The notes under the pieces are model-generated. The model ran no database searches. It saw nothing but the letters and a program-made list of their open reading frames with translations, and had not been told where the DNA came from. A stretch of 49,456 nt of DNA, taken from an uncultured Candidatus Actinomarina sp. (GTDB lineage Bacteria; Actinomycetota; Acidimicrobiia; Actinomarinales; Actinomarinaceae). Shown here piece by piece: positions 7,293 to 33,743 of the stretch. The stretch is from positions 1 through 49,456 of the forward strand of contig CABXDL010000001.1 in the NCBI GenBank assembly GCA_902510995.1. The letters are read 5' to 3'. Position 1 is the first letter of the stretch. Every line of letters begins with the position of its first letter. Both the position numbers and the translations under genes were made by a program.

Positions 7293-8021
7293 TTATATAT
7301 CTGTTAATGAAGTTACTTGTGAGACTATCTCTTCTTGAGTTGGGTTGTCTAAATCGTTCGCAATTTCTCCATCTTTTAACATAATTACTCTTTCTGCAAA
7401 AGAAGCTGCGTATGGATCGTGGGTAACCATTACAATCGTTTGGTTTAACTCACTAACTATTGATTTCATAAAAACTAAAAGCTCCTTGCTAGATTTTGAA
7501 TCTAAGTTCCCAGAAGGCTCATCAGCAAATATAACTTCCGGCTTTGAAGCCATTGCTCTTGCTGCAGCAACTCTTTGTTGCTGTCCTCCTGATAATTCAT
7601 TAGGCCTGTGTGTTAATCTGTCTCCAATATCCATAGTGTTTATAATTTTTTCAACCCAATCCTGTTCGGGTTTTTTGCCTGCAACAGAGGATGGGAGTGT
7701 TATATTTTCCTCAGCAGTCAAAGTTGGTATCAAATTAAATGCTTGAAAGATAAAACCAAAACTATCTCTTCTCATCTTTGTTAACTGCTTATCGTTCAGT
7801 GAAGCTAGGTCAACGCCTTTAATCAAAATAGATCCGGAACTAACCTTATCAAGGCCAGCTAAGCAATGAAGAAGGGTTGATTTTCCAGACCCTGATGGAC
7901 CCATGATTGCAGTAAACTGATTCTGATTAAAGGTAGTATTTATAGAATTTAAAGCTGTTACAGCTGTTTCTTTTTCTCCATAAACCTTAGTTAGGTCTAT
8001 TGTTTCAATTAATTTACTCAC
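7293..8021 (-). CDS. ABC transporter ATP-binding protein, LolD/MacB family
   Basis: Energises the adjacent 881-aa permease. Walker A GPSGSGKST is at residues 41-49, the Q-loop in FIFQAFNLIP, the signature LSGGQQQR at 143-150, Walker B VIFADEP at 163-169, the D-loop GNLDS and the H-loop His at about 201. Length 242 aa is typical. The start codon is GTG at 8019-8021 with no Shine-Dalgarno sequence; a TATTCT hexamer sits 7 bp upstream, which suggests a leaderless mRNA for the operon. Its promoter region is divergent from the tryptophan-leader unit at 8071-8201. Confidence 0.93.
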   Translation of the reverse strand: MSKLIETIDLTKVYGEKETAVTALNSINTTFNQNQFTAIMGPSGSGKSTLLHCLAGLDKVSSGSILIKGVDLASLNDKQLTKMRRDSFGFIFQAFNLIPTLTAEENITLPSSVAGKKPEQDWVEKIINTMDIGDRLTHRPNELSGGQQQRVAAARAMASKPEVIFADEPSGNLDSKSSKELLVFMKSIVSELNQTIVMVTHDPYAASFAERVIMLKDGEIANDLDNPTQEEIVSQVTSLTDI

Positions 8022-8070: not shown

Positions 8071-8100
8071 TTGTTATTTACTAATTTTAATGTGTATTCT
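8071..8100 (+). promoter_or_regulatory. Promoter of the Trp leader unit
   Basis: TTGTTA at 8071-8076 and TATTCT at 8095-8100 with an 18-bp spacer. The hexamer ends 7 bp before the ATG at 8108, so transcription would start at or next to the start codon. It lies back to back with the ABC ATPase promoter. Confidence 0.55.
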
Positions 8101-8107
8101 TTTACCA

Positions 8108-8152
8108 ATGTTAAAAACAAACAACTGGAATTGGTGGAATTTACTTACATAA
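8108..8152 (+). CDS. Tryptophan-rich leader peptide (trpL-like), 14 aa
   Basis: Reads MLKTNNWNWWNLLT then TAA. Three Trp codons in four positions (TGG AAT TGG TGG) are very unlikely by chance in AT-rich DNA and are the hallmark of trp-operon leader peptides. No ribosome-binding site precedes the ATG; the promoter hexamer is 7 bp away, so translation is probably leaderless. The stop codon overlaps the segment that would act as strand 2 of an attenuator. No trp gene follows on this strand. Known: ribosome stalling at Trp codons favours antitermination. Inferred: this is a functional or recently orphaned trp leader. Confidence 0.7.
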   Translation: MLKTNNWNWWNLLT

Positions 8153-8177
8153 GTGCCTAGTTTCTATTGTTTAAATT

Positions 8178-8201
8178 AACCGGGCACAGCCCGGTTTTTT
8201 T
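8178..8201 (+). terminator. Intrinsic terminator of the Trp leader
   Basis: Perfect 8-bp stem AACCGGGC/GCCCGGTT (8178-8185 and 8189-8196) with loop ACA, running into an uninterrupted T-run at 8195-8201. Strong on the plus strand. On the minus strand the tail is only TTAATTTAAA, so it would work poorly for the operon arriving from the right. Confidence 0.8.
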
Positions 8202-8230
8202 GTTTTAACTGTCACTGAAATTAAACATCC

Positions 8231-8243
8231 GGGCTCAAAGCCC
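8231..8243 (-). terminator. Possible weak terminator after the ybaK/2H operon
   Basis: GGGCT-CAA-AGCCC hairpin directly after the TAG of the 2H-phosphoesterase gene (minus strand). The following bases lack a real U-run, so this may only be a 3' stabilising hairpin. Confidence 0.3.
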
Positions 8244-8246
8244 AAA

Positions 8247-8723
8247 CTAGTCTAAAGAGATTGATGTAACTTCTTTCCAGCTTGATACATCAGGACCTGT
8301 TATGTAAAGCTCTAAGGTGTCGAAAACTCCCTCAATTGGTAGTAAATTATTAATTTCATCAATAGAAAAATTCAATGGTAGTTCATTCCCATAAAATAAT
8401 GAAAGATGAGGAGTCCAAAGACTAGGCCATGCCTCTATTGATGAAACAGCATTAAAAAAAGGGAAATTATCTGATGAGGTTAAAAATAATCTCTGAAAGT
8501 AAGTATTTCCTGTTCCTACAGAATCAAAATTAACTATAATTTTTTTCTTGTTGATCTTCTCAAGTGTTTCTTCAGCTTTCTGTAAAGAATGTATATTTGT
8601 AACAAGGGTTACGTGTGGGTTAAAAGGCTTCGTCTCTTCTTTTTCTGCAATCTCATTAATAAGTTCTTTAGCTTTATCTAAGCTTTTATTTGTAGATTTA
8701 GCCCAAATAGAATAAATATCCAT
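8247..8723 (-). CDS. 2H phosphoesterase / RNA-ligase-like (cyclic phosphodiesterase family)
   Basis: Small 158-aa protein with the two HxT/SxL signatures of the 2H superfamily: PHVTLVTNI (near residue 37) and PHLSLFYGN (near residue 106). Family members open 2',3'-cyclic phosphates on RNA ends or nucleotides. The spacing and short length resemble the yeast/plant cyclic phosphodiesterase branch more than long LigT proteins. Last gene of a minus-strand run (ZIP, cupredoxin-like, ybaK, this), 4 bp after ybaK. Substrate not deducible. The trp-leader unit on the opposite strand points straight into this gene. Confidence 0.75.
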   Translation of the reverse strand: MDIYSIWAKSTNKSLDKAKELINEIAEKEETKPFNPHVTLVTNIHSLQKAEETLEKINKKKIIVNFDSVGTGNTYFQRLFLTSSDNFPFFNAVSSIEAWPSLWTPHLSLFYGNELPLNFSIDEINNLLPIEGVFDTLELYITGPDVSSWKEVTSISLD

Positions 8724-9207: not shown

Positions 9208-9633
9208 TTAGGGGTTCACAATTATTCTAGCAAACTCAACCCCAGATTCATGATCTTCTATCTCAAACTCACCAGCTATAGATAAATCTATAGTTAGTTT
9301 ATTTTCTTTGTCTGGATACACCATAAAATCAATATCGTATCCATGAATATGAATCTCTGTTTCAACGGTAGTAATAAAATATAATTTTGCTTTATCAGAT
9401 AGGTTATAAGTTAATATCTGTAGGTTTTCTGGAGCAGTTTCTGGAACAACAACTTCATCAAAATAAACTTCTCCTTCTTCATCATGGTGTCCTTCTTCAT
9501 CATGATCATCTTCATCATGGTGTCCTTCTTCATCATGATCATCTTTCATCATGGTGTCCTTCTTCATCATGGTGATCATGGTTGTGCCCAACGTCAATAT
9601 AGTCGTGAGCAAGAGCTGAAACAGTTCCTCCAA
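9208..9633 (-). pseudogene. Cupredoxin-like C-terminal domain, out of frame with the ZIP gene
   Basis: The meaningful part is residues from about 30 to 141: an acidic, His-rich linker (DDHDEEGHHDE repeats) then a compact beta domain (YFDEVVVPETAPENL ... HIHGYDIDFMV ... GEFEIEDHESGVEFA), resembling cupredoxin-like small domains. The first 30 residues are the ZIP coding sequence read in a wrong frame, so the ATG at 9633 is not credible. Removing one base from the TTT at 9544-9546 joins this frame perfectly to the ZIP frame and gives one protein of about 379 aa. So this is a frameshifted fusion, a phase-variable domain, or a sequence error. If separate, the true start is unclear and there is no signal peptide. 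Confidence 0.6.
9478..9577. repeat. 33-bp tandem repeat encoding DDHDEEGHHDE
   Basis: Two identical 33-bp units (9478-9510 and 9511-9543) are followed by an extra T and a third, slightly diverged unit (9545-9577). Read on the minus strand each unit encodes an acidic/His-rich stretch suited to zinc binding. The extra base between unit 2 and unit 3 causes the frameshift in the ZIP gene. Tandem identical units are prone to slippage and to assembly errors. Confidence 0.9.
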
Positions 9634-10348
9634 ATATTAATCCAAAAATTAAAAATCCTGTCTGAAGCCCATATCTTACTTTTTCTGATGAATGGATTGT
9701 TGGAACAATATCACTAAGGGCAATGTAAATAAAGAATCCAGCAATTCCTCCGTACAAATATCCCATAGGAATGTCTAAATCTCCACCTATTTGGTAAGTT
9801 AACACTGCGCCGATAACAGTAGTTAAGCCTGATAGAACGTTACGTAAAATAGTTTGTCTTTTTGTAAAACCTACTCTTAGTTGATTACCAAACTCTCCAA
9901 CCTCAAGGGGAATGTCATGTGCAATTAATGCAACTGTTGCAACCAAACCAGTGTCTCTTCCTAGTAAGAAGGCTCCTCCTAGAGAAATACCATCAATAAG
10001 GTTGTGGAAAACATCTCCAATAACAAACAACCACCCCTGGGTAGTGTCGTTTTGTTTGTTCTTGTCTTCTTCATGATGGTGGTGAAATGACTTAAACCCT
10101 TTTTCAATTAGAAAAAATACAATAATTGCAACTAAAGTTGCATCAAGAACTTCTGAACCTCCATCTGCAATTGCTTCAGGTAAAAGATCCCTATATGCAA
10201 TCATTAATAATACACCTGCAGCAAAAGGTGTTCCATATTTAATTAACTTTGATGAAAAGCGTTCACTACCTAATAAAAACAAAGCAACTGATAGCGAAAG
10301 TAAACCAGCAGCAATACTTGCTAAAACTACAACTACAAAATCTGACAT
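9539..10348 (-). CDS. ZIP family metal (zinc) transporter
   Basis: Eight-helix metal importer of 269 aa up to the frameshift stop. Diagnostic motifs are the His-rich cytoplasmic loop (SFHHHHEED), FHNLIDGISLGGAF in TM4 and AHDIPLEVGEFG in TM5, which form the metal site in this family. After the last helix the protein runs into an acidic His-rich tail (GHNHDHHDEEGHHDE) and ends at a stop created by one extra base. ATG at 10348 follows GAAGG. The gene is divergent from a Fur-family repressor and sits downstream of a perfect Zur-type operator, so zinc-repressed uptake is the likely role (inference). Confidence 0.9.
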   Translation of the reverse strand: MSDFVVVVLASIAAGLLSLSVALFLLGSERFSSKLIKYGTPFAAGVLLMIAYRDLLPEAIADGGSEVLDATLVAIIVFFLIEKGFKSFHHHHEEDKNKQNDTTQGWLFVIGDVFHNLIDGISLGGAFLLGRDTGLVATVALIAHDIPLEVGEFGNQLRVGFTKRQTILRNVLSGLTTVIGAVLTYQIGGDLDIPMGYLYGGIAGFFIYIALSDIVPTIHSSEKVRYGLQTGFLIFGLIFGGTVSALAHDYIDVGHNHDHHDEEGHHDER

Positions 10349-33569: not shown

Positions 33570-33593
33570 TTTGCTACACTTTTTTTAAAGAAT

Positions 33594-33677
33594 AAAGCAA
33601 AGAAGCGAAGTTAGTGAAAACCTAATACTGTCCCGCAACTGTGATTCGAAAGATAAGTCAGGTCGACTTTTTGCTTT
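33594..33677 (+). promoter_or_regulatory. Cobalamin (B12) riboswitch
   Basis: P1 AAAGCAAA (33594-33601) pairs with TTTGCTTT (33670-33677). The core shows the family signature in order: GTGAAAACC, CTGTCCCGCAACTGTGA and AAGTCAGGTCGAC. A TACACT hexamer at 33575-33580 may be its -10. It precedes a BtuF-like gene by about 66 bp, so cobalamin should repress that gene. Confidence 0.9.
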
Positions 33678-33743
33678 TACAACAACAATCCTCGAGAGAA
33701 GGAGTGGAGTTTCAAACTTTTTCTCGTGGCAAGAAAGGAAAAT

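Follow-up and report, generated by a model that had tools for sequence, protein, structure and literature searches.

The window, a 49,456-nt stretch of DNA from Candidatus Actinomarina, contains a tryptophan attenuator with no operon behind it. Comparison across the genus suggests, with a probability of roughly two in three (0.68), that this attenuator has turned into a stand-alone, Trp-starvation-induced RNA that acts in trans on amino-acid uptake through livK. An earlier note on this DNA had recognized the attenuator; the tail segment, the livK target and the genus-wide lack of Trp synthesis were absent from it and were added by comparison with relatives.

Attenuator anatomy and distribution

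The promoter, the 14-aa ORF with Trp at codons 7, 9 and 10, the mutually exclusive hairpins and the terminator of the earlier note all lie where it had placed them, at 8071–8202 on the plus strand. On sequence evidence, they almost certainly constitute a ribosome-mediated Trp attenuator. The promoter (8071–8100) is composed of a −35 element, TTGTTA (8071–8076), an 18-nt spacer and a −10 element, TATTCT (8095–8100). It is absent from the list of a consensus scan, and the promoter call therefore rests on comparison with relatives. A TAnnnT motif is found 5–7 nt 5′ of the AUG in 17 of 18 distinct upstream regions, compared to 26% in shuffles. This spacing indicates that the transcript probably begins with the A of the leader AUG (8108) and is leaderless.

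The leader peptide ORF, MLKTNNWNWWNLLT, extends from the AUG at 8108 to a UAA stop at 8150–8152 and is kept as a short frame of 13–14 codons in 32 genomes. Its regulatory codons, Trp-Asn-Trp-Trp (8126–8137), form a WxWW block that is conserved in 30 of the 32 leaders, the variants being G026 (in-frame loss of one Trp codon) and G030 (first Trp replaced by Leu). The 1:2 hairpin (8119–8172) pairs 8119–8124 with 8167–8172 and 8127–8134/8136 with 8156–8164, around an inner stem of 8139–8143 with 8150–8154; a similar hairpin is present in every relative. In the 2:3 antiterminator (8153–8187), GUGCC (8153–8157), which abuts the leader stop codon, pairs with GGCAC (8183–8187). This pairing is retained across 26 distinct sequences (98.7% of 156 cells paired), with one double change from G-C to C-G. 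The intrinsic terminator (8178–8202), supported by folding, has an 8-bp stem with an ACA loop, AACCGGGC-ACA-GCCCGGTT (8178–8196), followed by a T-run, and its stem is invariant in the alignment of relatives. GGCAC sits inside the terminator hairpin, making antiterminator and terminator mutually exclusive. The folding and comparative checks that had been proposed earlier bear this anatomy out: the attenuator RNA folds better than shuffled sequences (z −2.55), the hairpin shows compensatory changes, and the Trp codons and the 2:3 pairing are conserved. No Rfam family, trp leaders included, matched the leader at the curated threshold. The sole Rfam match of the window is an AdoCbl (cobalamin) riboswitch at 33579–33714 on the plus strand (58.3 bits).

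BLAST placed the element in 29 of 59 relatives, every one of the same genus. A covariance model built from the leader was then searched against 296 genomes of the class, with copies above 85 bits taken as strong; the leader was found in 32 of the 42 genomes of the Actinomarina genus and in none of the 254 other genomes of the class. The peptides fall into four groups, MYKVTNWNWW(I/T)LHM, MYKxxNWxWWxLxx, MLKxNNWNWWNLxx and MKNxxxWxWWxTT, and outside the Trp block they vary by group (MLKTNN, MYKVNN or MKNVTS). At the assembled locus, the leader is missing from five genomes (G001, G002, G004, G010 and G019), and in G026 it seems to have decayed in part, with its −10 box gone along with the Trp codon; the leader is therefore dispensable in some genomes.

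Weaker matches of the model were rejected as copies of this leader since, where readable, they are other leaders with Val-rich peptides. Such peptides (e.g. MQKLNVVQVVVYIHM) define a second leader-type attenuator of the genus (L028:1429–1517, L029, L017, L179, L181 and L182), which has a similar terminator and lies upstream of isocitrate lyase (aceA), which one would not expect to find behind a Val-type attenuator. A third leader group (MFKLNAAKVVVIYI and similar; L180, L183 and L184), with the same kind of terminator, precedes an uncharacterised protein starting MIDENTFYDEEYYE.

Loss of trpB2 and retention of the leader

The 32 leaders occur in three contexts. In 15 genomes the terminator is directly followed by trpB2, which encodes a TrpB-like enzyme of indole salvage (NF009057/TIGR01415). 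Searching for trpB2 itself across the 42 genus genomes returned the same 15, with the gene always immediately behind the leader. The order at these loci is ABC ATPase (minus strand), leader, trpB2, sometimes a PRK05849-like gene, and then the convergent phosphodiesterase. Two leaders precede another operon gene: in G007 and G063, which have lost trpB2, the PRK05849-like gene comes directly after the leader. That gene was seen behind trpB2 or the leader at loci L067, L069, L072, L076 and L080. The other 15 leaders, including that of the window genome, are orphans in which a same-strand gene 3′ of the leader is absent.

The genes next to the leader in the window are on the minus strand, as had been stated earlier for those on its 3′ side. 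They are an ABC transporter ATPase (7293–8021), which serves as a syntenic landmark, and a 2H phosphodiesterase-like gene (8247–8723). In relatives the latter comes 3′ of trpB2, and trpB2 is therefore missing between 8244 and the phosphodiesterase-like gene. By this gene order, trpB2 once stood behind the leader and is now lost in the window genome. The earlier idea that a trp operon had moved away was right in that a trp gene follows the leader in 15 relatives and is gone here; its description of a leader with no trp gene is true of this genome but not of the many relatives with trpB2 directly behind. Farther along the minus strand (9208–10348), ORF 9539–10348 breaks off and ORF 9208–9633 continues in another frame. 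The break sits within a His/Asp/Glu-rich repeat (HDEEGHHDE), through which G013 (L002) has a longer frame running straight, and may be an assembly error, a frameshift or a phase-variable repeat.

A search for trpE (PF04715) found none in any genome of the genus, and trpA (PF00290) and canonical trpB (TIGR00263) were likewise not found there above cutoff; control genomes were detected. This absence agrees with published work, in which every Ca. Actinomarinales genome is described as auxotrophic for Trp, His and Arg, with several branched-chain amino-acid transporters (PMC7771536). The possibility of a trp gene elsewhere in the window genome, which the earlier note had proposed to check, was rejected, as trpE, trpA, trpB and trpB2 all gave no match in this assembly (G000, about 75% complete).

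Orphan leaders keep the Trp codons, the hairpin with its compensatory changes, the antiterminator and the terminator. In a comparison of seven MYK-group orphans, the neighbouring ATPase has 45% identity at 4-fold sites (synonymous sites are near saturation) and the sequence 5′ of the AUG has 46%. Identity is 86% for leader codons 1–6, 82% for the WxWW block (the differences lie in the middle codon and in the in-frame deletion of G026), 100% for the terminator and 77% for the tail described below. The junction between tail and phosphodiesterase is one and the same in G018, G003, G031 and probably G008, indicating that the orphan state predates the divergence of these genomes, unless recombination spread it. 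Two genomes with this common deletion junction, G003 and G031, differ by a C-G to U-A exchange in the hairpin, and another compensatory exchange distinguishes G000 from G012 and G060. In these last two genomes, the leader has been relocated together with its tail to a position between histidinol-phosphatase-like and glutamate-synthase-like genes. The old ABC/phosphodiesterase site is readable in G060 and is without a leader, and G012 has a single strong leader copy, at the new locus. An empty-site comparison could not define the insertion site, because relatives differ in gene order there and neither G000 nor G013 yielded the phosphatase.

Recombination is common in the genus (PMC7771536). The locus tree carries signs of it, with trpB2-bearing and orphan genomes interleaved, and thus the number of trpB2 losses is not firm and the age of the orphan state is blurred. 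G000 and G013 (L001 vs L002) hardly differ in the leader and on the phosphodiesterase side, whereas identity in the adjoining ATPase is only 78%; this contrast suggests a recombination breakpoint near the leader.

The orphan leaders might be functionless, decaying relics of independent and recent trpB2 losses. The interleaving in the locus tree would fit such relics, as would the orphan leaders of G023 and G017, which are almost identical to those of trpB2-bearing relatives, the loss of the leader in five genomes and the state of G026, without one Trp codon and its −10 box. However, two orphan-only leader groups are internally diverged and still keep the frame, Trp codons, stop, antiterminator and terminator, with their hairpin preserved through compensatory changes; the leader unit was relocated intact; and the tail is present in 15/15 orphans and fits livK wherever livK is readable. 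We consider relics unlikely, and selection on the leader as a stand-alone RNA very likely. Retained under selection, the orphan leader apparently works as a Trp-responsive RNA in its own right, the second of the two options that had been offered earlier.

The conserved tail and its match in livK

The feature had been taken to end at 8204, but 8205–8243 is also conserved. This part contains the tail, GTCACTGAAATTAAA (8211–8225), and, conserved together with it, segment 5 (CCGGGC) followed by TCAAAGCCC (8229–8243). Of the 32 leader loci, 25 keep this segment, with TGTCACTGAAATTAAA and CCGGGC; among them are every one of the 15 orphans and the relocated copies. The only exceptions are the seven trpB2-bearing genomes of the MYKVTN group, which lack it.

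The tail, just 3′ of the terminator, is the reverse complement of a segment of the livK 5′UTR (G000:C5:24770–24784). We searched all 42 genus genomes with a 16-mer, allowing one mismatch, and found the leader and one further recurrent site per genome, which is the livK 5′UTR. A reversed-pattern control gave 12 scattered matches in 42 genomes. Chance exact matches are estimated from base composition at ~0.01 per genome, with position not yet counted. The tail was also considered as a genome-wide repeat, which was rejected given one copy per leader-bearing genome and one recurrent livK site. The match is antisense (leader GUCACUGAAAUUAAA, livK UUUAAUUUCAGUGAC), and in the window genome the livK site lies 2 nt 5′ of the Shine-Dalgarno sequence AAAGG and 14 nt 5′ of the AUG. 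The tail thus shows what is expected of a trans-acting base-pairing sRNA, a conserved match to a distant mRNA close to its ribosome-binding site. The livK product is a LivK-type substrate-binding protein (best NCBIfam model PRK15404, with a score below cutoff) whose PDB relatives are Leu and Leu/Ile/Val-binding proteins, and the gene adjoins livHMGF-type genes. Tryptophan may be among the cargo of this importer.

Complementarity between tail and livK amounts to 14–16 contiguous pairs in 23/23 genomes with both parts readable. G024 and G061 combine the tail GUCACUGAAAAUAA with the livK site UUAUUUUCAGUGAC, a compensatory change in trans that represents a single event in one clade. Tail changes of three kinds (in G018/G031, G023 and G062) are all A-to-G and retain G-U pairs, and the livK-site changes that are unmatched by a tail (G001, G005 and G019) all occur in tail-less genomes. 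G021 and G059, in which the leader was not found, have a livK site of the G061 type. The livK site is retained in most tail-less genomes and so must serve some purpose apart from the tail as well; a portion of the site folds into a hairpin, UUUCAG-UGA-CUGAAA, beside the Shine-Dalgarno sequence. We regard RNA–RNA pairing of the tail with livK mRNA as likely from this comparison. Hybridisation energy was uninformative for picking targets, as other sequence windows equal or outrank livK. The livK 5′UTRs (L135–L173) have in common a hairpin, CCUAC..GUAGG, followed by a U-run 5′ of the tail target, and this resembles a short terminator or a 5′ stabilising stem.

In the mechanism that we propose, a ribosome translating the transcribed leader in the presence of Trp would reach the stop codon and cover GUGCC, allowing the terminator to form. 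With Trp scarce, it would stall on WxWW, GUGCC would pair with GGCAC and polymerase would read through. Because the tail is 3′ of the terminator, it would be present only in the read-through RNA and would, by attenuator logic, constitute a Trp-starvation signal. Read-through RNA carrying GUCACUGAAAUUAAA would then pair with the livK 5′UTR just 5′ of the Shine-Dalgarno sequence, and livK translation would change. The terminator arm GCCCGG (8189–8194) can pair with CCGGGC, with a probability of 0.54 in the predicted fold of free read-through RNA, and this pairing would place the tail in a loop. Equilibrium folding did not favour the antiterminator, as may be expected if the choice between terminator and antiterminator falls during transcription.

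When the livK target is blocked, the predicted unpaired probability of the Shine-Dalgarno region rises from 0.12–0.64 to 0.78–0.96, which argues for activation; pairing would open the hairpin that partly hides the livK Shine-Dalgarno sequence. The duplex is also close to the Shine-Dalgarno sequence, which argues for repression, as for GcvB on yifK (PMC3879156). On balance, activation is only slightly favoured over repression. The orphan switch probably now controls amino-acid uptake instead of Trp synthesis. An operon-less leader-peptide attenuator may well have become an independent regulatory gene in this Trp-auxotrophic lineage, its starvation read-through RNA pairing with the mRNA of an importer.

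A further possibility is that the 15-mer common to tail and livK 5′UTR is the DNA operator of one transcription factor, in opposite orientations. Sites in double-stranded DNA would match equally well and show that same co-variation, and the livK site belongs to an inverted repeat, TTTCAGTGACTGAAA. However, the second half of that repeat is not conserved in the tail, both sites lie 3′ of the probable transcription start (beside the Shine-Dalgarno sequence in livK, behind the terminator in the leader), and every tail change without compensation is A-to-G, a kind that RNA pairing can accommodate; we judge an operator improbable. As for rnTrpL/peTrpL of Sinorhizobium meliloti, the active species could be the terminated RNA or the leader peptide, produced in Trp plenty, but we consider this quite improbable. 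The leaderless start and 14-codon ORF are like those of rnTrpL (PMC7298713) and the terminator is the best conserved part, but the conserved target match sits 3′ of it, and the group-specific differences in the peptide outside the Trp block make a peptide function unlikely. Least credible is a read-through RNA serving as cis antisense to the convergent phosphodiesterase gene, which we consider highly improbable. In this genome and several other orphans a convergent gene comes next, yet its identity varies (phosphodiesterase, ABC transporter, lipoprotein-like or histidinol-phosphatase-like) while leader and tail are kept, and both are also conserved at those trpB2 loci that have the tail, where no convergent gene follows.

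Relation to known systems

An attenuator is classically a cis element. The present comparison of genomes reveals one that outlives its gene and apparently becomes a trans-acting regulator, with the intermediate states spread over one genus: cis only, cis plus tail, tail only, relocated and lost. If the trans-acting reading is true, relatives with both trpB2 and the tail have one 5′UTR doing both jobs, in cis and in trans, and abundant, streamlined ocean bacteria with few known regulators could couple amino-acid import to tryptophan charging. We found no report in the open-licence literature of a leader-peptide attenuator retained without its operon, whether as an orphan or stand-alone.

The leader resembles trpL-trpE-type attenuators in its short ORF with a run of Trp codons, a stop beside the antiterminator arm, and an exclusive antiterminator and terminator. 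Unlike that type, it precedes in relatives trpB2, an indole-salvage enzyme in auxotrophs, is operon-less in 15 genomes and has a conserved tail behind the terminator. The nearest sensor is rnTrpL/peTrpL of Sinorhizobium meliloti, a leaderless 14-codon Trp leader with proposed trans action (PMC7298713). The analogy drawn in the earlier note holds for the leaderless start, which we infer from the position of the −10 element (17/18 distinct sequences), and for the idea of trans action, but not for the direction. rnTrpL is a terminated RNA whose operon is intact (PMC7298713), whereas here the operon is lost and the target match is 3′ of the terminator, so that the target-pairing part would be found only in read-through RNA and the terminated RNA would not be the trans-acting species. 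GcvB on yifK likewise pairs just 5′ of the Shine-Dalgarno sequence of an amino-acid transporter mRNA, although GcvB represses (PMC3879156) and is no attenuator product, whereas the effect on livK may be activation or repression. As in the riboswitch-gated RNAs AspocR and Rli55 of Listeria (PMC8079631), a terminator-bearing sensor would gate a non-coding RNA whose long read-through form acts in trans on another gene. Unlike in those systems, the sensor would be a translating ribosome on Trp codons rather than an aptamer, and the RNA is proposed to act through a short run of base pairs at a Shine-Dalgarno sequence.
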